In this document: one piece after another, positions 10,881 through 29,683 of the stretch
How positions within the stretch are numbered: position 1 is the first letter of the stretch
How the letters are laid out: each line of letters starts with the position of its first letter
Assembly (NCBI GenBank): GCA_958295945.1
Contig: OY282386.1
Span: 4,830,204-4,894,203, forward strand
From: Candidatus Poribacteria bacterium
GTDB lineage: Bacteria > Poribacteria > WGA-4E > WGA-3G
Direction: 5' to 3'
DNA length: 64,000 bases
Notes under the pieces: generated by a model
What the model was told of the DNA's origin: nothing
What the model saw: the letters and a program-made list of their open reading frames with translations, nothing else
Database searches by the model: none
Position numbers and translations under genes: made by a program

Positions 10881-11999
10881 TTATCCAATTCTAAGCGTAC
10901 TCAACGCTATCAACATCAAGATAAGTGCGACAATCCAGAATCGGATTACTACTTTTGATTCCTTCCAACCTGAAAGCAAAAAATGATAATGAAGTGGAGA
11001 CATTTTTATAACCCGTTTTCCGAATGTTCTATATGACCACACCTGTATGATGACAGAAAGTGTCTCTGCTACAAAAATACCACCCGCGATGATTAGTAGA
11101 AATTCCTGTTTTATAAGGAGAGCACACGTGCCGAGAGTAGCACCGAGAGGTAATGATCCGGTGTCTCCCATGAAAAGTTGTGCAGGATGTCCATTGTACC
11201 ATAGGAATCCCAATCCTGCCCCAACTAATGCTGCACAAAAAATAGCAGCAACTTCTCCACCGATTGGTAAATGGAATAGGTTAAGATGTTCCGCAATAAC
11301 ATTGTGACTTGCAAGGTACCCCAATGCCCCAATTGTACCTGCTACGAAAAGCGTACATCCAATTGCCAATCCATCCATTCCATCCGTAAGATTTACGGCA
11401 TTTGATGTACCAACAATAACTAACGTTGCAAGAGGAATAAAGAGAATATTCAGATTAGGCTTATAGTTCTTGAAAAATGGAAGATGTAATGCCGTGCGAC
11501 TTGCAGTATCATTCGCTTCAACTGGACCCCATTGGTAAAGATAATATGCAATTGCTATAGCCCCCACCGTTTGGAGGACAATCTTCTGCCAACCGCGTAG
11601 TCCAAGCGATTGTTTTCTACTAATTTTACACATATCATCTAAAAATCCAAGTCCTCCAAACCACAACGTCGTCAGAATCATCAGGTAGATAAAAGGTTGA
11701 TCCAACTTTGCCCAAAAGACGATGGATATTAACACGGCTACTATGATTAATATCCCACCCATTGTAGGTGTTCCAGCCTTGCTTTGATCATCATCATTCT
11801 GCTGTGCTTTCTCGACCTCTTCTTGAATATGCTCACCTATACGCAACTGTTTCAACCTTCTTATCATAAATGGTCCTAAAACAAGCGAAATGACGAGAGC
11901 TGTAGCAGTCGCATAAACAGCACGGAATGGAATTGAACCAAATACTTCAAAAGGTTGATATAGGTTTATAAGGTTTTGAAAGAATAGATGATAAAACAT
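10881..11999 (-). CDS. mraY: Phospho-N-acetylmuramoyl-pentapeptide transferase MraY
   Basis: Integral membrane enzyme that transfers phospho-MurNAc-pentapeptide to undecaprenyl phosphate to form lipid I. About ten transmembrane segments are interspersed with diagnostic loops: GTPTMGGILI, the aspartate-rich GFLDDMCK, NLTDGMDGLA, FMGDTGSLPLG and the MSPLHYHFLLSGW loop. Length 372 aa is normal. It directly precedes murD (3 bp gap) and follows ddl after 115 bp of AT-rich DNA. Confidence 0.97.
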   Translation of the reverse strand: MFYHLFFQNLINLYQPFEVFGSIPFRAVYATATALVISLVLGPFMIRRLKQLRIGEHIQEEVEKAQQNDDDQSKAGTPTMGGILIIVAVLISIVFWAKLDQPFIYLMILTTLWFGGLGFLDDMCKISRKQSLGLRGWQKIVLQTVGAIAIAYYLYQWGPVEANDTASRTALHLPFFKNYKPNLNILFIPLATLVIVGTSNAVNLTDGMDGLAIGCTLFVAGTIGALGYLASHNVIAEHLNLFHLPIGGEVAAIFCAALVGAGLGFLWYNGHPAQLFMGDTGSLPLGATLGTCALLIKQEFLLIIAGGIFVAETLSVIIQVWSYRTFGKRVIKMSPLHYHFLLSGWKESKVVIRFWIVALILMLIALSTLRIG

Positions 12000-12114: not shown

Positions 12115-13338
12115 TCATTCCTCTAATTGTGAGTGCGATTTTAGTTTAGTGAGATTTGCACCAGCTTGACTTAACAGGTTCGTTGAATAGGAATAGATGA
12201 GTCGGTTTTTCTCATTATTGGTTTCTATGGCAAGGTTTACCAGTTGGGATACCAAATCCGGAAAGGAGACACCATCAGGTTCCCATAAGTAAAAACTAAA
12301 AGATCCTGGAATTGTGTTTATCTCATTTACATATACTTGTCCATCATCACTAACCAAAAAATCAATTCTGGCAATTCCCATGCAGTCAAGAATCTTAAAA
12401 GTTTCCGAAGCAAGTTTCTGAATATGTAACGTCATATCCTCAGGAATAGGTGCAGGTATTTTTCGTTGTGCCCCAGCCATACCTGATGTGTTTTCAGTTA
12501 TGGGTGAATCATTAGAAGTCTGCTCTGTTTCTGAATTTTGATGTATGTATTTATCATCAAAACTAAGAAAATCCGTGCTAGTAATCGGTTGTTCACATAC
12601 TGATGCAATTGGTGTGTGTGTTCCCATTACCGAACAATTGATTTCATACCCATTTTCAATACCTTGTTCAACGAGGATACGACGACAATAACGACAAGCA
12701 AGTTCAATTGCATCTTTAAGCTCTTCCGTATTTTTTGCTTGACTAACACCTATACTTGAACCACTAATTGCTGGTTTGACGAACACAGGATATACAGTCT
12801 TCTCTTCTATAATGCTGACAATATCATCACTGGAAGAATTCCATTCATGTTTTGTAAACGGAATATATGGAACAATTGGAAGTCCGTTCTCATTAAGCAC
12901 AGCCTTCATCATGATTTTATCCATACCAATACTTGAACCGACGATTCCAGCCCCTACATACGGCACATCCATCAGTTCAAGCAATCCTTGGAGACTACCA
13001 TCTTCACCATTTACACCATGAATTGCAGGAAACACAATATCAACATTTAGTTCCCTTTTCTTACTAAATAAACCAGTTCGTTTCGGTAATACACTGAATC
13101 TTGGATTTGCTTGGAATTCAACAGTAACTATATCATAATCATTAGCACTTGGTAATGCGCCATCTGTAAATGTGCTTAATTCACCGAGTTCATCACCAGT
13201 TAACCATATTCCCTCTTTTGTTATATATATTGGGGTTACGTCATGGCTCTCAGTTAATGCAGCTTTGACCTGATGTGCTGTGACGATTGACACTTCATGT
13301 TCGGGTGATCTCCCTCCAAAAATGACCGCTACGTTCAT
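12115..13338 (-). CDS. ddl: D-alanine--D-alanine ligase
   Basis: ATP-grasp enzyme that makes the D-Ala-D-Ala dipeptide added by MurF. The N-terminal motif FGGRSPEHEVSIVTAHQV, the central SSIGVSQA loop and the C-terminal metal-binding VNEINTIPGSFSFYLWE are clear. A serine/threonine/glutamate-rich insertion of about 30 residues (around 275-305) makes the protein 407 aa, longer than the usual 310-370. It lies between murF and mraY. Confidence 0.94.
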   Translation of the reverse strand: MNVAVIFGGRSPEHEVSIVTAHQVKAALTESHDVTPIYITKEGIWLTGDELGELSTFTDGALPSANDYDIVTVEFQANPRFSVLPKRTGLFSKKRELNVDIVFPAIHGVNGEDGSLQGLLELMDVPYVGAGIVGSSIGMDKIMMKAVLNENGLPIVPYIPFTKHEWNSSSDDIVSIIEEKTVYPVFVKPAISGSSIGVSQAKNTEELKDAIELACRYCRRILVEQGIENGYEINCSVMGTHTPIASVCEQPITSTDFLSFDDKYIHQNSETEQTSNDSPITENTSGMAGAQRKIPAPIPEDMTLHIQKLASETFKILDCMGIARIDFLVSDDGQVYVNEINTIPGSFSFYLWEPDGVSFPDLVSQLVNLAIETNNEKNRLIYSYSTNLLSQAGANLTKLKSHSQLEE

Positions 13339-13416: not shown

Positions 13417-15036
13417 TTATGATACTTCATTGTAATTATCTGGTAAATCATTTTCAAATAAGACGACATCTCCCGGTTTCAACCTTGTCTGAAGATGTTG
13501 CTGTGCTTCATCAAGATTGTTCACGATAGATATTTTTTGATCGGGATAGTTTTCGTTCTTGAGTCCGTCCAATATCGGTGCCGTTCTTATCTTGCCAACA
13601 AGAATGATATGGTCACAAACTTTCGCTGCTTCTGAACCAAAATGTCTATTCTCATCATATTCTCGTGCACCAAGTTCTACCATACCTGGTGTAACCAATA
13701 CCTTTTTTCCCTGTTTTTCACTTAAAAAGTCTGTGAGGACTTCAAGCGCAGCCTTTGCACCTTCAGGATTTGAATTGAAACTGTCATCTATAATTGTTAC
13801 GCCCGCAACACCTTTCACCAACTGCAATCGGTGGGGAACTGGTTCCAATGTAGATACGGCACTTTGTATTTCAAGCAATGTCATACCACAATGCAGAGCA
13901 ACACTAATAGCTGCAAGTATATTTGACACATTGTGTTTACCCAAAAGCCGTGTTGTGATTTTTACAGCTCCCGCTTCTTCGTCAAATACTGTGAAAGTTA
14001 ATCCTTTTTCGTTCTGTATAATATTTTTGGCACTCAACCTAACCGAATGATTTGCTGTTATACCGTATTGGATAACAGGAACAGAATCGGTTGTTTCTGC
14101 TAACTTTGCACAAATTTCATTGTCAGCATTTATCACTGCAAGGCCGTTTTGTGGTAGTGCTTCAATTAACTCATACTTTGCACGAGTAGTATTTTCAATT
14201 GTTTTGAATCTTTCTAAATGTACTGGACCAACTGCAGTGAGTATACCGATTTCTGGAGGAGCCAACCGACACAATTCACGAATGTCACCACGTTTGTATG
14301 CTCCCATTTCTACAATAAAAAACTTATGCTTAGGTAATAAATCTCCTCTGATTACCTTGCATATACCCATCGGTGTATTATAACTATCTGGGGTCATCAA
14401 TGTGTTGTACTTCTGCGACAGAATTTGTTGTAGAATGTATTTTGTGCTTGTTTTACCATAGCTTCCTGTAATTCCTACAATCTTTGGTTGTAGTGTTTTT
14501 ATCCGTTTTCTCGCATCACGCAAATAGATGTTATTAATTGTCTGTTCTAACGGCCAAATTACGAAACTGCTCACAGCAAGTATAGGCACTGAAAGTTCAC
14601 TGAATAAAAAGAACCCAATACGCCAACTTTCTTCATTCACATAACTAACAAACATTATCGCTACGACAACAAGCATCGCAAGTGCCAATCCGAAAAGCCG
14701 TTTAGCACGGGCAGTGAATACGAGTGGTTTTTTCGCGGTAATTCTCTTACGACTAATAATTCTAAAGACCAAAAATGCTGTCCATGTAAGACATATCACT
14801 GTATAGGACCAAGTCGACAAAATGCTTGGAAATACTGATATAACTACCAACACACCTGCGATTAATAATATTTCTATGATTTCAAAACAACTTCGAATGT
14901 GTTCCGATATCCATTTCAGATACCGTTGAGGTTTATACCCATCCAGTTGAAGTATGTGTAATCCACCTGTTGTCCTGATGACAGCCCTAATATAACAAGT
15001 GACAATCAGAAGGTAAAATAATATCTCATTTAGCAT
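13417..15036 (-). CDS. murF: MurF-type Mur ligase with N-terminal membrane domain
   Basis: The C-terminal two thirds is a Mur ligase: P-loop ITGSYGKTSTK near residues 189-199, the VGPVHLERF segment, a glycine-rich central domain and the C-terminal DDSFNSNPEGAKAAL motif typical of MurF, which adds D-Ala-D-Ala. The first 165 or so residues are not the usual UDP-MurNAc-binding MurF domain 1. They form about five hydrophobic helices (roughly 5-20, 52-72, 75-94, 115-133, 141-165) with basic loops. Position between murE and ddl supports a MurF role, and no second murF is in the window. The membrane domain implies a ligase anchored at the inner membrane. Confidence 0.85.
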   Translation of the reverse strand: MLNEILFYLLIVTCYIRAVIRTTGGLHILQLDGYKPQRYLKWISEHIRSCFEIIEILLIAGVLVVISVFPSILSTWSYTVICLTWTAFLVFRIISRKRITAKKPLVFTARAKRLFGLALAMLVVVAIMFVSYVNEESWRIGFFLFSELSVPILAVSSFVIWPLEQTINNIYLRDARKRIKTLQPKIVGITGSYGKTSTKYILQQILSQKYNTLMTPDSYNTPMGICKVIRGDLLPKHKFFIVEMGAYKRGDIRELCRLAPPEIGILTAVGPVHLERFKTIENTTRAKYELIEALPQNGLAVINADNEICAKLAETTDSVPVIQYGITANHSVRLSAKNIIQNEKGLTFTVFDEEAGAVKITTRLLGKHNVSNILAAISVALHCGMTLLEIQSAVSTLEPVPHRLQLVKGVAGVTIIDDSFNSNPEGAKAALEVLTDFLSEKQGKKVLVTPGMVELGAREYDENRHFGSEAAKVCDHIILVGKIRTAPILDGLKNENYPDQKISIVNNLDEAQQHLQTRLKPGDVVLFENDLPDNYNEVS

Positions 15037-15239: not shown

Positions 15240-16001
15240 TCAAGCCAAAAAGGTTTCAACAGATTGACAAAACTCTTTAGGTTTGTCAAGAAACGAAAAA
15301 TGTCCTGCACCTTTGAGGATGACTAACTCAGCGTTAGGAATCTCATCTTGCATTATCTTGCCAGACGAAATAGGTGTGTCTATATCATTTTCTCCCCAAA
15401 TTAACAAAGTAGTTGCTTGTATCTTCGGTAATAGTGGTCGTAAGTTTTGGTTCACAGATTTCACCATTGTTGCTCTCATTAGACCTGCTTTCTTATAGTC
15501 ACTTGAGCCTACACGATTCGCAATATTATCTGCCAAACGCTTGCCTAAAGCACCACACTTCCGTATCAATCGTCCTATTTTAGCAAGACTGATTTTGAAA
15601 TGATATGTCATAGGACGGGGTAAGATTATTCCGGCACTGTCCACCAAGATCAGTTTATCAACTTTTTCAGGTTGTTCTGCTGCCAAGACAATAGATATCC
15701 TACCTCCATACGAGTGGCCAATTAAATGTGCTTTGTCAATGTTGAGTTTTTCAAAAAAAATAGATATTATTCTCGCATAATCGGAAGCATCCCATGCATC
15801 TGGTGGAATCTCACTTAGTCCAAATCCTGGTAAATCAAGGGCATATATCTGATGAGTATCCGAAAACCTATCAAATACATAACTGAAAGTATTTGCTTCA
15901 GCACCCCAACCGTGCAATAGAATAACAGGTGTACCTGTACCCTCAACTTGATAAGCGATTTTTAGTTTTTCAATCTCTATGAACTTCACTCGCCCCATCA
16001 A
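15240..16001 (-). CDS. Alpha/beta-fold hydrolase
   Basis: 253 aa alpha/beta hydrolase. The oxyanion-hole segment ILLHGWGAEA is near residue 28, the nucleophile elbow GHSYGG near 96 and the terminal histidine in KGAGHFSFLDKP near 233; an acid in the late GENDIDTPI strand completes a plausible triad. No signal peptide, so probably cytoplasmic. It sits between murE and murF in the cell-wall cluster, where no hydrolase is normally found. The sequence does not reveal the substrate; esterase or C-C hydrolase activity are both possible. Confidence 0.85.
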   Translation of the reverse strand: MMGRVKFIEIEKLKIAYQVEGTGTPVILLHGWGAEANTFSYVFDRFSDTHQIYALDLPGFGLSEIPPDAWDASDYARIISIFFEKLNIDKAHLIGHSYGGRISIVLAAEQPEKVDKLILVDSAGIILPRPMTYHFKISLAKIGRLIRKCGALGKRLADNIANRVGSSDYKKAGLMRATMVKSVNQNLRPLLPKIQATTLLIWGENDIDTPISSGKIMQDEIPNAELVILKGAGHFSFLDKPKEFCQSVETFLA

Positions 16002-16038: not shown

Positions 16039-17619
16039 CTACTGAATGATATGACTATCTTCCTGTTGCCTGTTTGACTTATTATCTAATTCTTGCAGAA
16101 TGTTTGATGCAACTTCCCGGTCATCAAATGGATACCGTTTTCCGTGAATTTCTTGATAATCTTCATGACCTTTTCCAGCAATTACGACAACATCACCTGG
16201 ATTTGCCTCAAAAATAGCGTTTCGAATTGCAACATGTCTCTCTGGAATACACTTAAATGCTGCATCATGTGGTAAATTTGACACAATATCTGAGATGATT
16301 TCATCGGGATTTTCAGTACGTGGATTATCTGAAGTTATTACACTCATATCTGCAATTTGTGTAGAAATTGCACCCATTTTTGGACGTTTCCCTCTATCAC
16401 GGTCACCTCCGCAACCAAACACCGAAATTAACTTTCCTTCCGAGATTCCGCGGGCTGCTGTCAGGACATTTTCCAATCCATCGGGAGTATGTGCATAATC
16501 CACAATTACAGCAAAGTCTGTATCACTTTTTCCATTTGAATTTACACGTTCAAAACGTCCAGGTACCACTGTTGATGAAAGACCTTCCTGAATTGCTGAA
16601 ACACTACAGTTATAGTGTAAACCCACACATATTGCTGCAAGTGCATTGTAAATATTATATGACCCGAGTAAACTGATAGACACATTAAACTTGTCAATTT
16701 TTGGGTCAGTCTTATTGAAATTGGTGTTACCTTCGTTTATAGCCGTGAAGGACAGTTTTTTTAGAGAACTTTCTATTTCTTGTGCCGTTATGTCAGAGTT
16801 TTCATCAAGACCATATCTTATAATATATTTCTCTGGAATATGTTCAACGATTCGCTTAGTTGCCTGTGAATCAGCATTTAATATTGCAACTCCATTTTCG
16901 CTCAACTGATCAAATAACTTCAATTTTGCAGATAAGTAATTTTCCATTGTGCCGTGGTAATCCAGGTGATCCTGTGTTAGATTGGTAAATATTGCGGTTT
17001 CAAAAGTAAGACCGAACAAACGGTGTTGTGCCAGTCCTTGAGATGAGGTCTCCATAACCACATGCTCTACACCTGCATCGGCAATCTGTTTTAACATTTC
17101 ATGGAGTTGAAATGCATCTGGAGTTGTTAGCAGTGCTGGAATATCAACACTTGTATCCTGTTGAGTACTTGAACCAGAGTCCACTACATCAAATGAATGT
17201 CCTACTGTGCCTAATACAGCAGCATTCTCTCCATTCGCCTTGAGTATTCCGTAAATTAAATGAGCAGTGGATGTTTTACCATTCGTGCCGGTTATACCCG
17301 TTAATCTTAGACTCTTTGCAGGATTACCGAACCAATTCGCAGCACACAATGATTGAGCAATTCGTCCATCGAGAGTGACGACAGAAGTTACATCCTTAGG
17401 TAAGTTGGATGCTTCATTTTCTGAAATGATGACCTTTGCACCGTTCTTGATAGCACCAGGGATAAATGTATGTCCATCTACATTCAACCCTTTATAACAA
17501 ATAAATGCATATCCCGGCTTGACCTTACGGTGATCACTGACTACACCATCAATTATCGGATTGGAGTCTCCTAAGACTTTTTTGACTTCAATTCCGGCCA
17601 GAAGGTTTTGGAGTTTCAT
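16039..17619 (-). CDS. murE: UDP-MurNAc-L-Ala-D-Glu--meso-diaminopimelate ligase MurE
   Basis: Adds the third residue of the stem peptide. The P-loop GTNGKTST is at about 110-117, and the substrate-specificity motif DNPR (in SDNPRTENP) predicts meso-diaminopimelate rather than L-lysine, consistent with a Gram-negative wall. I chose the ATG at 17619 because GGAGAGGG lies just upstream; another in-frame ATG at 17631 would add four residues. Either way the start lies inside the end of ftsI, indicating translational coupling. Length of about 526 aa is normal. Confidence 0.96.
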   Translation of the reverse strand: MKLQNLLAGIEVKKVLGDSNPIIDGVVSDHRKVKPGYAFICYKGLNVDGHTFIPGAIKNGAKVIISENEASNLPKDVTSVVTLDGRIAQSLCAANWFGNPAKSLRLTGITGTNGKTSTAHLIYGILKANGENAAVLGTVGHSFDVVDSGSSTQQDTSVDIPALLTTPDAFQLHEMLKQIADAGVEHVVMETSSQGLAQHRLFGLTFETAIFTNLTQDHLDYHGTMENYLSAKLKLFDQLSENGVAILNADSQATKRIVEHIPEKYIIRYGLDENSDITAQEIESSLKKLSFTAINEGNTNFNKTDPKIDKFNVSISLLGSYNIYNALAAICVGLHYNCSVSAIQEGLSSTVVPGRFERVNSNGKSDTDFAVIVDYAHTPDGLENVLTAARGISEGKLISVFGCGGDRDRGKRPKMGAISTQIADMSVITSDNPRTENPDEIISDIVSNLPHDAAFKCIPERHVAIRNAIFEANPGDVVVIAGKGHEDYQEIHGKRYPFDDREVASNILQELDNKSNRQQEDSHIIQ

Positions 17620-19537
17620 AACCCTCTCCATTTTTCACAAGTGTATCGTCAGAGATTGGAGTGTGTTTGATAGGTGATTGACTCAGTTCTTCAGAACTAC
17701 TCTCAAGTTTGTTCTTGTAGTTAGTAACTTGTGTACCACCTATATTTGTTATCCTACTTGATCCATCTGCATAATTTGAATTAGTAGTTCTCTTTTTTTT
17801 CGGTATAGTACCAAATAACCCTATTCGCTCAATATATGGAAGAGTTTGTTCAGCAATCCGCTTGAATATTGGTGCAGCAATCTGACCACTAAATCTGGCA
17901 CCACTGGGTTCGTCAAGTGTAACAATTATCGCAATTTTCGGATCATGTGCAGGTAGGAATCCCATAAAAGACATAACTTCTTTTCCAGCAGCATATCCTT
18001 TACCTTTCTCAGCTTTCTGAGCAGTACCTGTTTTACCCGCAATACTGACACCCTCTATTCTTGCACGCCTGCCACTTCCGTTTTCAACCACACCGATGAG
18101 AATATCAGTCATCTTTCTTGCAGTAGCAGGATCAATTACCTGCCTGATTTCAGTGGGATAAATCTTTTTGATTAAGTTCCCTCTTTCATCTCTGATTTCC
18201 TTAGTTATATACGGTTTGTGTAATGTCCCACCATTGGCGATAGCGGCTAACGCATTCACCATCTGTAAAGGAGTTACTGAGATCCCTTGTCCGAACGGTA
18301 CAGAACCTAGTGAATTTGTATCCCACCGCTTAAGTGCATACAAGTTACCTGTTTGTTCATAAGGAAGATCAACACCTGTCTGTTTTCCAAAACCGAAGTT
18401 CTCAACGTATACCTGAAATAGGTCCTGTCTAACGCCAATCAACTCTTGCACTATCTTTATCATCCCGATATTACTGGACTTGTGAAGCACTTCAGTAAGA
18501 GTTAGATGGCCTTTTGCTGAAACATCCTTAATCACACGCCGTCTCGTGATACGGTAACGTCCATTCTCACAGAATACCGTTGATTCCGGTGTCATAATGC
18601 CTTCATTCAATACTGCAGACGTTGCGATTATCTTGAAGATTGACCCCGGTTCAAATAGGTACCAAATCCCGAGATTGCGTTTTGCTTCTTCATCAGCATT
18701 TGTCTGATCATTAATGTCGTATGTAGGACAACTTGCCATTGCTAATATTTCTGATGTATTTACAGCAAGGACAATTGCTGTTCCTTTAGCAGCATTCCAA
18801 TCCTTACAACCCTGTTCAAGTTCTTTCTCAGCTATATCCTGAATTATTTCGTCAATAGTAAGCACCACGTTACTGCCACTGTTACCAAGAGAATTGGTGA
18901 AAGATTGTTGATTGAATGAGGTAGATGTAGAATTACCTTTTCTCTGAGAAATAGGCGAATGTATTTTATGAAGATAAGTGTTGTATTGATATTCAATTCC
19001 TTCACCCATACCCTCATCGTTTAGGTAACCAATGACCTGTGAGGCAAGTGTCTTTTTCGGATAAACACGATTCGGCTCAATCTCAATTTTGAGGCCTCTA
19101 TGATTATCTGTAATGTCGCGAATTGCTTCCAACCTATCATACACTATTCCTTTCTTGAGCCAAACATATTCTACATAATGTCCATTCCTCTTACGCTGTA
19201 GTAATGCTACTAAATTTGACGGTGTGGTATCTAATAAGGGGGCTAATTCAGTGGCGACACTGGCAGCGTTAGATTTTCTGTTGAAAGTCTTTGGATCAGC
19301 AGAAACAGATATTAGGTCTTGACTGATTCCTAAAACAGTACCATGTCTATCCTGTATTTTGCCTCGTTTAACATCGCTTTTTCCACCAGAACGCCAATCT
19401 CTTCGGTCTGCTAATGCTGAATCAGCGTTAGGAAATTGTATAGTAAATAACTTTCCTATCAATAAAAGAAAGCCAATTTGTAGCACTATTAAGACAAAAA
19501 CGAGTCGTCGTATTGAGAGAAATGTGTTACTTTTCAT
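17588..19537 (-). CDS. ftsI: Penicillin-binding protein FtsI (PBP3-type transpeptidase)
   Basis: Class B PBP that cross-links septal peptidoglycan together with FtsW. One transmembrane helix at about 8-32, a PBP-dimer domain, then the transpeptidase with active-site SIFK (in FEPGSIFKII), SSN (in KSSNIGMIK) and KTGTAQ motifs. Length 649 aa includes a polar, asparagine/serine-rich tail of about 60 residues past the catalytic domain. No PASTA domain is visible. Its 3' end overlaps murE. Confidence 0.96.
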   Translation of the reverse strand: MKSNTFLSIRRLVFVLIVLQIGFLLLIGKLFTIQFPNADSALADRRDWRSGGKSDVKRGKIQDRHGTVLGISQDLISVSADPKTFNRKSNAASVATELAPLLDTTPSNLVALLQRKRNGHYVEYVWLKKGIVYDRLEAIRDITDNHRGLKIEIEPNRVYPKKTLASQVIGYLNDEGMGEGIEYQYNTYLHKIHSPISQRKGNSTSTSFNQQSFTNSLGNSGSNVVLTIDEIIQDIAEKELEQGCKDWNAAKGTAIVLAVNTSEILAMASCPTYDINDQTNADEEAKRNLGIWYLFEPGSIFKIIATSAVLNEGIMTPESTVFCENGRYRITRRRVIKDVSAKGHLTLTEVLHKSSNIGMIKIVQELIGVRQDLFQVYVENFGFGKQTGVDLPYEQTGNLYALKRWDTNSLGSVPFGQGISVTPLQMVNALAAIANGGTLHKPYITKEIRDERGNLIKKIYPTEIRQVIDPATARKMTDILIGVVENGSGRRARIEGVSIAGKTGTAQKAEKGKGYAAGKEVMSFMGFLPAHDPKIAIIVTLDEPSGARFSGQIAAPIFKRIAEQTLPYIERIGLFGTIPKKKRTTNSNYADGSSRITNIGGTQVTNYKNKLESSSEELSQSPIKHTPISDDTLVKNGEGYETPKPSGRN

Positions 19538-24509: not shown

Positions 24510-24605
24510 ATGGTGGCACTTTTAAGATGGATCATCAATACCTTCTCAGCAGAAAAGCAAGATGACGGCACATGGAAAATACTGTCCGTTACGCCAAAAG
24601 AGTGA
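24510..24605 (+). pseudogene. Short 3' gene remnant after the inverted repeat
   Basis: 31 codons from an ATG at 24510 read WIINTFSAEKQDDGTWKI then LSVTPKE and stop at TGA 24603-24605. The compact, well-formed sequence next to a repeat suggests the end of a truncated gene. No Shine-Dalgarno precedes the ATG. The family was not recognised. Confidence 0.4.
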
Positions 24606-25075
24606 CTCCCTACTTTGGTAAACTCAGCGGTTCGCCATTACGTAGTTTTATGATCATCCTAAGACGTGAGATATTAGCACCGATTCAAACACGATCGGAA
24701 TTACAACGGACCAATAAGGTTGCAGCAGGAGTGTATTTCTACACGCTCACCGCAGGCGAGTTTTCTGCGACCCGCAAAAATTCTGAACTCGACAACGCAG
24801 GATTTTATATCTACCGCAGTGAAACCCAAGCGGGTGAATTCAAAGTCGTCAACCCAACTATGATTGCGGGTGCTGGCACAACAGGAGAACGCACTGAATA
24901 CTCGTGGACAGATACCACAGCGAAGCCGAATACTGTCTATTACTATCGTATAGAAGATATGTCTCATGCGGGAGTTCGCGAGCAGCTTGCGACAGTTCGG
25001 TTGAGAGGACTTGTATCTGCGACCGGTAAACTTATCACAAAATGGAGTGACCTTAAACGCACTTCTGTATTCTAA
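24572..25075 (+). pseudogene. Chimeric remnant: YFYTLTAG-type domain end fused to FN3-like tail
   Basis: The frame from 24572 begins with about 45 residues of no recognisable family. It continues with KVAAGVYFYTLTAGEFSATRK, the end of a FlgD-Ig-like C-terminal domain that normally stops after a few more residues. Instead it joins NSELDNAGFYIYRSET, the start of the fibronectin-like C-terminal domain seen in the next two genes, and ends with TKWSDLKRTSVF. It has no signal peptide and no proper N-terminus, so it looks like a deletion fusion of two gene ends, not a working protein. Only about 60 bp separate it from the next gene. Confidence 0.65.
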
Positions 25076-25135: not shown

Positions 25136-28100
25136 TTGAAAAAAATAAGTTGTCTTTGCGGAATGTTTTGTTGTTTTATCCTAATGCTGAGCAGTGGGTT
25201 GCCCGTTGCTGCGGCACCGACGGATCCTGTAACGATCCCCGATGCGAACCTCCGTGCTGCGATCGAAACCCTACTCAGCAAGGCTTCTGGTGCGACAATC
25301 ACCGAGGCGGAGATGGCTGGCATAACACCCCGGATATTTGTGACTACCGCAGTGCGTAATCTTACCGGTCTCGAATACGCCACCGGATTCAGAGAGTTAA
25401 CGCTTAAGCGACTATATACATCCTCTGCCTCTTCCGATCTTGACCTAACCCCCTTGCAAAACCTCACACAATTGACATACCTGGATCTCAGTGGTCATGT
25501 TGAAGATCTCTCACCCCTGCGGGGATTAACAGCCTTGACAAACCTCATCCTTTCTAACAATCGTATCGTAGATATTTCGCCCCTGCGGGAGTTAACGGCG
25601 TTAAAACAGTTATATCTTGGGAATAATCAAATCACGGATATATCACCGCTGAGTCGCCTTACCAACTTGGAGGAACTCCATCTTCGCAACAATGTGGAAC
25701 TCTCGGATATCTCGCCGCTGAGACATTTAAGAAAACTGAGATTGTTATGGCTCCACCAAACCGCTATCACGCCCTCGGGGCTGAGAGCGGTGCTACCCGC
25801 TTTAGGATCCCTGAAGGACTTGAATCTTCAGGTCACCCGCATTTCTGACCTATCCGTGTTAGAGGCGTTCCCAGCAGACGTGTCGTTGGCCAAACTAGAT
25901 CTGCGCTACATAGGGACCATTGGTAGAGATGTCGCTTGGCTGCTGACGGATATCACCCCCTTGGCGGCGTTCGTCCAGGCAGGAAAAATGGGAGCCGATA
26001 GTCAGTTTACTGGGAGTCCCCGGATTGAGTTAGACTGGAACCTCGCGTTGGACTATGAATCCATCTACACAGACATACCAGCCCTCATAAATTACCCCAT
26101 AAATGTCGATTATCACCCCTCTGTACCTGCTCTTGAGCGGGCAGCTCCGACAGTTGATACTTACGAAGGCTTCCCCGGAACACCCGCCAGGTTTGTGGTG
26201 CGAGCTGTTAATAATACCACTGCAAGCAACCGGACATTCCGATGGCCGCGGTTCGAGAAGGTGCCTGTCACATGGAGAGTTACAGCCCCCGACGGCACGG
26301 TAAGTGAAACACCAGCCGTAACGGACGACGATGGGTTGTCATCGTTTACGATCACCCTCGGCGATGTTGGCGAGACGCACACCGTAGAGGCAATCGTCCC
26401 TGCGAATATGCCCGCGCAGGGGCCTTCACACCCCGAACTCAAAGTAACCTTCACTGTAACCGCCGTCGCACCGCCTACGATTACGTTGACGCTCACAAAG
26501 GAAACTGTTACACGGACATCATTACAATGGCACGCTGAAGTCGAGGGCACCCTCCCCAACGCCTACGTCCATTATTACAAGAAAAGTGCGGATACGGAGT
26601 GGATAGAGGTCGGAAATCTTGGGCGGAGTCGTGGGCGTCTATTCGGTTTTCTCCATTCAGATCTTCAACCGGGGACCTGCTATGACTTCCAGTTGTTTGC
26701 GTTGGAAGGCGGGATCCGGGTTGAACCGGGTAGCAATGTGCTGAAAGGATGCACACTCGGAACTCGTCCGAGCCCGCCTGTCGAACCGCCGGAACCACCA
26801 CCAGAGCCGCCAGAACCCGTGAATAATCCCCCCGTTTTCAAGAGTGCCTCTGCTGTGTCCGTTCAGGAAAATACGACGGCAGTCGTCAGAGTTGTCGCCG
26901 CAGACCCGGATACCGATGATGCGATTACAAGTTATGCGATTACGGGTGGTGCGGATAGGGCGTTATTTCAGATCAGTGGTGAGAACACGCCATCAGATAT
27001 GTTACGTTGCAAGACTGCGCCGGACTTTGAGATGCCCGGTAGTGCTGTGAATAGCAACATCTACACGCTTATTCTCACGGCGACGAGTGGTGTTGATGAT
27101 CGTGAATTGACAGCGACGCAGACAGTAACCGTCACCGTCACAGATGTTGACGAACCTGTAGAACCACCCGTAGACCCGCCTGTTGACCCACCCGTTGATC
27201 CGCCTATTGACCCACCCGTTGATCCGCCTATTGACCCACCCGTTGAGCCACCGGTAGAACCACCCGTTGACGAACCTGTAGAACCACCCGTAGACCCGCC
27301 TGTTGACCCACCCGTTGATCCGCCTATTGACCCACCCGTTGAGCCGCCTGTTGAACCACCCGTTGAGCCACCGGTAGAACCACCCGTTGAGCCACCCGTT
27401 GTTGATGGCAGCACCGATCCCACGTACTTCGCGCCCGCTATTCCGCTGGCAACACCTTCCTTTATTTTCAACGAGGTTCATAACGATTCAGACGATACAA
27501 ACGATTGGATAGAACTGAAAAACTTGTGTAACGTTCCGATTCACCTCTCCGATTGGCAGATACGTCTGCTTTCAAGCGAGGATACTGAGGCGGATGGAGA
27601 GGTAGATGTTGTGTCGTTTCCCGATGTTATGTTGCCAGCGCAAGAGGTGCTGTTAATTACGAACACCGATCCGAGCGAGACACGGCTTGCGAGTGGTTTG
27701 AATATTGCTACGGGTGCGCGTCGCGGTGCGCATCATCTGTATCTTGTTTCGGAACGTCTGCAGCTGCCGAGCGAGCCGTATCTGCTTATTTTACAACGCA
27801 GGACAGATGCCAACGGAAAGCCACCAAAGACGATTGAAGATGTTGCTGGCACTTATTTCCGGACTGTGTTGCCCTACCCCACAGAATTTTATCAAGTGTA
27901 TCCACTTGTGAACGCGTATCGCCCGACGGAGGTAGCTGCACCGCTGACGTACGGTGTGTGGCAGCGTCAAAGTTTAGAACATCCGGGGTATTTCGCGTTG
28001 GCATGGATAGCGAGCAGGTATCATGGGGGCATCGGGTATGATCGTCACGCTGAGGCGTGGGCATCTCTCGGCACGCCGGGCTACCTGCTTGACCCGTCCC

Positions 28101-29683
28101 CTTCTTGGCCTGTGGCGTATCGTCTTGTTTTCAACGAAATACACAATGCCACAGACGACACCAACGACTGGATAGAACTCAAGAACTTTTGTGGGGCGGG
28201 TGTTCGGCTCAAGGATTGGGAGATCAGTATTGTTGCGAGCACCGGTGATGCAGCGCGTCAAGATGTGACCATTGTGTCGTTTCCGGACTACACGTTGCCG
28301 ATGGGTGGGGTGCTTTTGATTACGAACAGCGATCCGAGCGAGACACGGCTTGCGAGTGGTTTGAATATCGGCACGGGTGCGCGTCGTGGTGCGCAGCATC
28401 TGTATCTCGTTGCCCCCGACTTGAAACTGCCGAACACGCGGTATCTGCTGATTTTACGGCATGCGCGTGAGAAAAACGGCACCCCGGAGGCGATTGAGGA
28501 TGTCGCTGGCAATTACTTCCGAAGTGCACACAACACAGAGGTCTGGCCCCTCGCTGATACCCGACGTCCAACGGCTCCTGCAGCCCCGTTGACAGCGGAA
28601 GGCACTTGGCAACGCAGCGATTATCGGGAACCCGGATACCTCGCCGCTGCATGGACAGTGAGCACATCGTTTTCGGGGCTCGGATACGACCGCCACGCAA
28701 TCCCACCTCTTGCATTCAGCGAGATAATGTTTGAATCTGAGGGTGGGGTACGCTCACTGCCACAGTGGATTGAACTGTCCAACACAACAGATAACGATAT
28801 AAATATACGCGGGTGGCAATTGATGTGGTATAGACGCGAACCGAAACTCTTAGAGGTTACGACAACATTTGAAACGGATTTTGTTATACCTGCTAAGCAA
28901 TCACGCCTGATTGTGTCAACGGATGCACGTAAATCGGATCAATCCGGTTTGAATGATGTTTGCAACCTTTTCACGCATCATCGTGCTGAACTTGATCAAA
29001 ACGATGGTCGAAACCGTAACCGGTTGATTGCGCGTGGGGGGTTCTATTTGAAATTGCTTGATGATGGGGGCACACTTATTGACGAGATCGGTACGGTTGC
29101 CGACAAATCGAGCGAACTGAGATGGGAGTTACCCGATTGTGATATAGAGGGTGTGCGGAGTTCTCTGATACGCAGGTTTGACGATGGCACCGCAAGAAAT
29201 GGAATGGAAAGCGCAGCCTGGATACGTGCTTACGATACAAAAACCCGTCCTACAGGGATGTGGTATGGTCGTAGCACGGATATTGGCACCCCTGCCTATC
29301 GCAGTGATAACGCACCTTTACCCGTTACGCTGTCTGCTTTTTTAGTAGAACTCACGAATGCAGGTGTTGTGCTGAAGTGGACAACGGAATCTGAAGTAGA
29401 CAACGCAGGGTTTTACATCTACCGCAGTGAAACGCGATCGGGTGGTTTCAAGGTCGTCAATCCGAAACTCATACAAGGTGCTGGCACGACAGGAGAACGC
29501 ACGGCGTATAGTTGGACTGACACCACCGCTAAGCCGAATACTGTCTACTATTATCGTATAGAAGATGTGTCTCATGCGGGTATTCGCGAGCAGCTTGCAA
29601 CCGTGCGTTTGAGGGGACTTGTGTCAGCAACGGATAAACAACTAACAAAATGGAGTGATCTCAAACGGACTTCTACATTCTAA
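25136..29683 (+). CDS. Large secreted multidomain protein: LRR, Ig-like, cadherin-like, lamin-tail, FN3-like
   Basis: 1515 aa from a TTG start with a strong AAGGAGAAGG ribosome site. A signal peptide (about 1-26) leads to internalin-like leucine-rich repeats (about 70-240, repeated DISPL motifs) and an Ig-like segment (about 340-440). An FN3-like region (about 445-535), a cadherin-like repeat (about 555-670, NNPPVF then VAADPD), a proline-rich spacer (670-757) and three lamin-tail-like domains (starting near 770, 990 and 1190, with NDWIELKN or PQWIELSN cores) follow. The protein ends with an FN3-like domain and the tail KQLTKWSDLKRTSTF. The architecture suggests an extracellular or surface binding protein; the ligand is unknown. 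It is GC-richer than neighbouring chromosomal genes. Confidence 0.85.
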   Translation: MKKISCLCGMFCCFILMLSSGLPVAAAPTDPVTIPDANLRAAIETLLSKASGATITEAEMAGITPRIFVTTAVRNLTGLEYATGFRELTLKRLYTSSASSDLDLTPLQNLTQLTYLDLSGHVEDLSPLRGLTALTNLILSNNRIVDISPLRELTALKQLYLGNNQITDISPLSRLTNLEELHLRNNVELSDISPLRHLRKLRLLWLHQTAITPSGLRAVLPALGSLKDLNLQVTRISDLSVLEAFPADVSLAKLDLRYIGTIGRDVAWLLTDITPLAAFVQAGKMGADSQFTGSPRIELDWNLALDYESIYTDIPALINYPINVDYHPSVPALERAAPTVDTYEGFPGTPARFVVRAVNNTTASNRTFRWPRFEKVPVTWRVTAPDGTVSETPAVTDDDGLSSFTITLGDVGETHTVEAIVPANMPAQGPSHPELKVTFTVTAVAPPTITLTLTKETVTRTSLQWHAEVEGTLPNAYVHYYKKSADTEWIEVGNLGRSRGRLFGFLHSDLQPGTCYDFQLFALEGGIRVEPGSNVLKGCTLGTRPSPPVEPPEPPPEPPEPVNNPPVFKSASAVSVQENTTAVVRVVAADPDTDDAITSYAITGGADRALFQISGENTPSDMLRCKTAPDFEMPGSAVNSNIYTLILTATSGVDDRELTATQTVTVTVTDVDEPVEPPVDPPVDPPVDPPIDPPVDPPIDPPVEPPVEPPVDEPVEPPVDPPVDPPVDPPIDPPVEPPVEPPVEPPVEPPVEPPVVDGSTDPTYFAPAIPLATPSFIFNEVHNDSDDTNDWIELKNLCNVPIHLSDWQIRLLSSEDTEADGEVDVVSFPDVMLPAQEVLLITNTDPSETRLASGLNIATGARRGAHHLYLVSERLQLPSEPYLLILQRRTDANGKPPKTIEDVAGTYFRTVLPYPTEFYQVYPLVNAYRPTEVAAPLTYGVWQRQSLEHPGYFALAWIASRYHGGIGYDRHAEAWASLGTPGYLLDPSPSWPVAYRLVFNEIHNATDDTNDWIELKNFCGAGVRLKDWEISIVASTGDAARQDVTIVSFPDYTLPMGGVLLITNSDPSETRLASGLNIGTGARRGAQHLYLVAPDLKLPNTRYLLILRHAREKNGTPEAIEDVAGNYFRSAHNTEVWPLADTRRPTAPAAPLTAEGTWQRSDYREPGYLAAAWTVSTSFSGLGYDRHAIPPLAFSEIMFESEGGVRSLPQWIELSNTTDNDINIRGWQLMWYRREPKLLEVTTTFETDFVIPAKQSRLIVSTDARKSDQSGLNDVCNLFTHHRAELDQNDGRNRNRLIARGGFYLKLLDDGGTLIDEIGTVADKSSELRWELPDCDIEGVRSSLIRRFDDGTARNGMESAAWIRAYDTKTRPTGMWYGRSTDIGTPAYRSDNAPLPVTLSAFLVELTNAGVVLKWTTESEVDNAGFYIYRSETRSGGFKVVNPKLIQGAGTTGERTAYSWTDTTAKPNTVYYYRIEDVSHAGIREQLATVRLRGLVSATDKQLTKWSDLKRTSTF
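27147..27402 (+). repeat. Proline-rich PVDPP/PVEPP repeat with internal duplication
   Basis: About 50 tandem 15-bp-type units encode PV(D/E)PP or PIDPP pentads between the cadherin-like and lamin-tail parts of the large protein. A block of about 70 bp starting GACGAACCTGTAGAACC at about 27150 recurs almost exactly at about 27267, showing recent slippage or unequal crossing-over. Because the repeat is in coding frame, unit number could vary without frameshift. Confidence 0.8.

Follow-up and report, generated by a model that had tools for sequence, protein, structure and literature searches.

MurF is regarded both as an enzyme that is universal and soluble and as a drug target. One locus in a Candidatus Poribacteria genome (GCA_958295945.1) raises the question of whether its reaction can instead be carried out by an enzyme built into the membrane and, if so, on which substrate. 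The locus lies in a stretch of 64,000 nucleotides of contig OY282386.1 (positions 4,830,204 to 4,894,203; hereafter, the window). A sequence-only reading of the window had pointed to a MurF-like gene, here named murF-M, in which a membrane domain replaces the substrate-binding domain, and had proposed that, if this were the cellular MurF, the pentapeptide would be completed at the membrane, next to MraY. The features of the locus are given in Table 1.

Table 1. Coordinates of murF-M, its domains and motifs, and the neighboring genes in the window
Feature	Position	Strand	Basis
murF-M, predicted membrane-anchored MurF-type ligase, 539 aa (intact ORF; ATG at 15036, stop ending at 13417)	13417..15036	-	ORF, Pfam, NCBIfam TIGR01143, AF2, PDB fold matches
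N-terminal membrane domain, residues 1-183, five predicted TM helices	14488..15036	-	hydropathy, AF2
HxxQxxxY motif, residues 27-34	14935..14958	-	conservation
Predicted cytosolic basic loop KKPLVFTARAKR, residues 102-113; candidate diphosphate-binding loop (inferred)	14698..14733	-	conservation
Mur ligase middle (ATPase) domain, residues 189-380	13897..14472	-	Pfam
P-loop GSYGKTST, residues 191-198	14443..14466	-	sequence comparison
Mur ligase C-terminal domain, residues 402-527	13456..13833	-	Pfam
ENDLPD, residues 528-533, in place of the canonical MurF KGSR motif	13438..13455	-	sequence comparison
Cassette alpha/beta-hydrolase, Ser97-Asp206-His234 triad	15240..16001	-	Pfam
Cassette-type Ddl	12115..13338	-	domain searches
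murE, flank of the insertion point	16039..17631	-	ORF, domain searches
mraY, other flank of the insertion point	10881..11999	-	assigned from sequence; gene order in relatives

Pfam recovered the middle and C-terminal domains of a Mur ligase in murF-M (Mur_ligase_M, E = 3.7e-45; Mur_ligase_C, E = 5.8e-16), and the N-terminal Mur_ligase domain, which binds UDP-MurNAc, was absent from both the Pfam scan and the AlphaFold2 (AF2) model. The best NCBIfam model was MurF TIGR01143, at 250.9 bits and thus under the cut-off of 288.6, with a match covering profile positions 65 to 403 only. Ahead of the ligase core, hydropathy indicated five hydrophobic segments (residues ~2 to 23, 56 to 74, 72 to 95, 115 to 133, and 142 to 160), consistent with the roughly five helices seen earlier, and the AF2 model (73 sequences; pLDDT 93.7, pTM 0.90) placed five helices there (2 to 31, 53 to 68, 75 to 95, 109 to 132, and 136 to 182). 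The 47-residue helix 136 to 182 connects the ligase core with the last membrane helix. All of the first ten PDB fold matches were MurF entries, and MurF is the closest family of the middle and C-terminal domains by both sequence and fold. Structure modeling returned a confident fold with a MurF-like core behind membrane helices. The replacement of the N-terminal domain by a membrane domain thus holds in Pfam, hydropathy, and AF2 alike. Since this layout is kept in relatives from many phyla, it is neither a mis-assembly nor a product of chance. One relative (L033 10946-12736, genome G029) is a membrane MurF whose ligase part has an insert of ~40 to 45 residues, which breaks the family match in two, and in a Chloroflexota genome (G304 C16:1585-2637) membrane-type coverage (profile positions 62 to 403) lies inside an open frame of 889 codons that may be a fusion.

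The source genome is a single contig of 5.34 Mb that is 95.5% complete. Searches of the whole genome with the murF-M protein and with TIGR01143 found no second or canonical murF, which extends to the genome the earlier observation that the cluster holds no other murF. They returned murF-M, MurC, MurD, MurE, and one weak TIGR01143 match (45 bits, in a 461-aa frame) that is probably FolC. A MurF split into two genes was also considered; the only extra N-domain match in the genome (E <= 0.01) was MurE's own. At 95.5% completeness a missed murF is conceivable, yet more than 50 relatives show the same absence. In a sample of 85 genomes of the phylum, which its closest named relatives also identify as Candidatus Poribacteria, 76 had exactly one match each at E <= 1e-45. 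Of these matches, 22 were full-length canonical MurFs that scored above the cut-off and the other 54 were of the membrane type, with no genome of the 85 carrying both. Within the phylum, the membrane type is present in all four genera of the window's family and in a single genome (G016) from a neighboring family. We regard murF-M as very probably the sole MurF of its genome.

The two forms also exclude each other among 119 Bacillota genomes with a completeness of 98% or more, of which 112 have a canonical MurF, 7 have the membrane form only, and none has both; in the set of 149 Bacillota genomes, at least 138 have a canonical MurF above the cut-off. Three of the Bacillota carriers were confirmed as true membrane forms by sequence. 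In a further set of 42 genomes picked for carrying murF-M, with calls made from match lengths and positions, ~14 also had a canonical MurF and ~28 did not. Double carriers comprised Sedimentibacter-like genomes and Sporosalibacterium with a second MurF-Ddl pair, Muribaculaceae-type genomes with a MurF-Alr fusion, and some Chloroflexota, a phylum in which the membrane MurF is found both alone and together with the canonical enzyme. Isolates with a membrane MurF and no canonical one include Marinococcus luteus, Alteribacillus persepolensis, Pseudalkalibacillus decolorationis, Aquibacillus kalidii, Dethiosulfatibacter aminovorans, and Anaeromicropila populeti. Exclusion therefore has no exceptions in Poribacteria or the Bacillota sample but does not hold everywhere, and since a canonical MurF is also present in some Chloroflexota, Bacteroidota, and Sedimentibacter-like Bacillota, murF-M and the genes that travel with it would have a second or different job there.

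These genes form a cassette with the conserved order alpha/beta-hydrolase, membrane MurF, Ddl. Across 78 loci, the hydrolase lies directly upstream of murF-M in 67 and the Ddl directly downstream in 59, with gene ends that often overlap or nearly touch, and the Ser-Asp-His triad of the hydrolase is kept in nearly all loci. Relatives with a canonical MurF have the order murE-murF-mraY (L031, L034, L037, L039, and L041), and carriers have murE-hydrolase-murF-M-ddl-mraY (L030, L040, L043 to L046, and the window), so that in the window's family the cassette occupies the canonical murF slot between murE and mraY. Outside Poribacteria, the membrane MurF gene is normally away from the dcw cluster, where its cassette has variable neighbors (enolase, H+-pyrophosphatase, RNase R, urocanase, and others) that offer no functional lead. 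Genomes of the phylum have one Ddl each, of the cassette type in carriers and an unlinked, shorter Ddl in the others; the cassette Ddl is the only one found in the source genome. Four genomes of Muribaculaceae and related groups (G110, G115, G120, and G126) have a canonical MurF-Alr fusion, a membrane MurF, and a single cassette-type Ddl, which the two MurFs seem to share. As the only MurF of its genome, without overlap with the canonical form in the phylum and in the slot between murE and mraY, murF-M is almost certainly the cellular MurF, as had been supposed conditionally, and most likely works at the membrane. Elsewhere in the window, the adjacent ORFs 24572-25075 and 25136-29683 (both on the + strand) are almost identical to each other in one C-terminal stretch, TGERT.YSWTDTTAKPNTVYYYRIED.SHAG.REQLATVRLRGLVSAT, which may be a domain for secretion or sorting. 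Proline-rich VEPPV/DPPV repeats are also present in the longer ORF.

By the positive-inside rule, murF-M is predicted to have an N-out, C-in topology, with its Lys/Arg-rich loops in the cytosol. In the HxxQxxxY motif, Q30 and Y34 are invariant in 73 sequences and H27 is kept in 86%. The basic residues sit in the loop between TM3 and TM4, which has the pattern KKPLxxTxRxKR in membrane MurF; T108, R110, and R113 are invariant there, and K102 (99%) and K103 (92%) are close to it. We infer that this loop is a candidate diphosphate site. P162 and A175 are also invariant and E164 is nearly so, and the remainder of the domain varies freely. The domain belongs to no Pfam family (Pfam matches of single members were at chance level) and has no sequence relative in the PDB; the best PDB fold match (E = 0.96) was meaningless. 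Both the location at the membrane and the change in substrate recognition that had been suggested gain support from the AF2 model and the invariant residues.

The catalytic positions K195, T196, E243, H273, K287, N372, R403, D418, and N421 are common to murF-M and canonical MurF, so that the MurF set (GKT, Glu, His, carbamyl-Lys, Asn, Arg, and Asp) is complete and the features of ATP use, namely, the P-loop, the carbamylated-Lys position, and the Mg ligands, are kept. The ligase core is thus intact, as first described, but with a change that had gone unremarked: ENDL stands in place of the canonical C-domain KGSR in 94 to 100% of 81 membrane-type sequences. Canonical MurF (TIGR01143; PDB 1gg4, 3zl8, 4cvk, and 4qf5) and murF-M have in common the middle and C-terminal domains, the P-loop, the catalytic positions, a location in the dcw cluster, and a Ddl partner. 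In contrast, murF-M has a five-helix membrane domain instead of the UDP-binding N-domain, falls below the family cut-off, and has ENDL for KGSR and PGM for GDM. The partner ligase has changed as well: the cassette Ddls are without Thr278 and Ser281, both present in all eight non-cassette Ddls compared, and retain E15, S150, Y216, and R255. The numbering follows the E. coli MurF and DdlB sequences, and the KGSR/GDM sites of MurF and T278/S281 of Ddl are on the incoming-residue side. With motifs on the incoming-dipeptide side of membrane MurF unlike those of canonical MurF, the dipeptide itself may differ; either membrane MurF and the cassette Ddl hold it differently, or it may be other than plain D-Ala-D-Ala.

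When 11.3 million genome contigs were scanned, at least 574 stretches proved to encode relatives. The best 80 of these came from Bacillota, Chloroflexota, Bacteroidota, Rhodothermota, Synergistota, Nitrospirota, Methylomirabilota, and a Methylococcaceae MAG. In a quick maximum-likelihood tree of the ligase core (114 rows), all 81 membrane forms were placed in one clade (SH-aLRT 100) beside canonical MurF, with which it grouped against MurE/MurC (SH-aLRT 97). Poribacteria formed one sub-clade (98), with G016 sister to the window's family. The membrane MurF, with its own hydrolase and Ddl, is hence no peculiarity of one genome but a single clade spread over many phyla. The simplest reading of the tree, in which the deep branching order is weak, is one origin with later transfer into Poribacteria. 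Among the plasmid tblastn matches listed there were canonical MurF and related ligases only and no plasmid-borne membrane form. A literature search, with subscription papers outside its scope, found no description of a membrane MurF or of the cassette. Three soluble Bacillota homologues of MurF (L136 in G220, L137 in G158, and L138 in G174; ~368 aa) start almost at the P-loop and so likewise have no N-domain, but they have no membrane domain, form a separate clade in the tree, and coexist with canonical MurF.

Among characterized systems, MurT of the MurT/GatD lipid II amidotransferase is a Mur ligase fold that has no UDP-binding N-domain and acts on lipid II (PMC6113224). The authors of the Staphylococcus aureus MurT study argued that a lipid II-acting Mur ligase neither needs such a domain nor could fit it near the membrane (PMC6113224). 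The missing N-domain is common to MurT and murF-M, whereas MurT has a Cys4 zinc ribbon, a GatD partner, and a short flexible N terminus rather than five helices. Assignment of murF-M to the MurT family was rejected, as the match (E = 2.8e-4, 19.8 bits versus a cut-off of 800) is far weaker than that to MurF and the neighbors are a hydrolase and a Ddl, not GatD. The VanI-type cluster with murF_I of Desulfitobacterium, a D-Ala-D-Lac resistance cluster (PMC4229326), also links a MurF homologue to a Ddl-type ligase. Compared by gene content and Ddl type, the murF-M cassette differs from it in having an alpha/beta-hydrolase, no van genes, and a Tyr216-type Ddl. A D-Ala-D-Lac (Van-type) module was likewise rejected, since Tyr216 is kept in every readable cassette Ddl.

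The explanation that we favor, at somewhat better than an even chance for the whole, is a membrane-bound cellular MurF that arrived by cassette replacement and most likely uses a lipid-linked acceptor. The three-gene cassette has replaced canonical murF within the dcw cluster, with loss of the unlinked canonical ddl. The cassette Ddl would make a D-Ala-D-Ala-type dipeptide, and murF-M, with ATP, would attach this to the tripeptide stem on the cytosolic side of the membrane. The acceptor would be lipid I or lipid II tripeptide, with MraY, and perhaps also MurG, acting ahead of MurF. Because the UDP-binding domain has been lost and a membrane domain with an invariant basic loop is found instead, the acceptor is most likely lipid-linked, and the logic of MurT, a lipid II enzyme lacking that domain, points by analogy to the same substrate. 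On these grounds we lean toward a lipid-linked tripeptide and hold it to be at least as likely as the soluble UDP precursor assumed in the sequence-only reading. It is possible, however, that the cellular MurF still acts on soluble UDP-MurNAc-tripeptide, the membrane domain tethering the enzyme and passing UDP-MurNAc-pentapeptide to MraY, with the UDP-diphosphate held by the basic loop or by a membrane-proximal surface. The evidence for a sole MurF in the genome would fit equally well, the conserved basic loop could also bind a UDP diphosphate, and the cassette adjoins mraY in the window's family. We consider this clearly less probable, since the cassette is apart from mraY in most carriers, the uridine-binding domain is missing with no separate N-domain in the genome at E <= 0.01, and MurT, the closest precedent without an N-domain, uses lipid II.

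An unlikely alternative concerns the other substrate, in that a membrane MurF might add an end other than plain D-Ala-D-Ala (a different terminal residue or a modified C terminus), which the hydrolase would then edit or trim. The change from KGSR to ENDL, the loss of T278 and S281 from cassette Ddls and their retention in the Ddls that accompany canonical MurF, and the complete catalytic triad of the hydrolase would all be in keeping with such a role. Yet E15, S150, Y216, and R255 of the cassette Ddl are the set for D-Ala-D-Ala, not D-Lac, and since the four Muribaculaceae-type genomes combine a canonical MurF-Alr fusion with a cassette-type Ddl only, that Ddl should feed canonical MurF there. 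It is very improbable that murF-M is a Mur-type ligase serving some other membrane-linked polymer or lipid, with an unrecognized enzyme carrying out the MurF step: the lack of any overlap with canonical MurF in the phylum and the Bacillota sample, the dcw position, the linkage to Ddl, and MurF as the closest relative in fold and sequence argue against it, despite the coexistence with canonical MurF in some genomes and the altered substrate-side motifs. With a lipid-linked acceptor as the preferred reading, the fullest version would be a widespread second route, in which MraY loads UDP-MurNAc-tripeptide first and membrane MurF, with its own Ddl and hydrolase, then adds the dipeptide (possibly not plain D-Ala-D-Ala) to lipid I/II. 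We give this version slightly less than an even chance.

In many Bacillota, among them gut and soil isolates, in Poribacteria, and in other phyla, a membrane enzyme without the UDP-substrate domain takes the place of the textbook MurF. NCBIfam leaves this form below the MurF cut-off, and the conserved cassette supplies its partner hydrolase as a new candidate player. Should the acceptor be lipid-linked, the last cytosolic steps in making peptidoglycan would have no universal order, and if the second route is true, the textbook order of MurF and then MraY would be reversed in several phyla.
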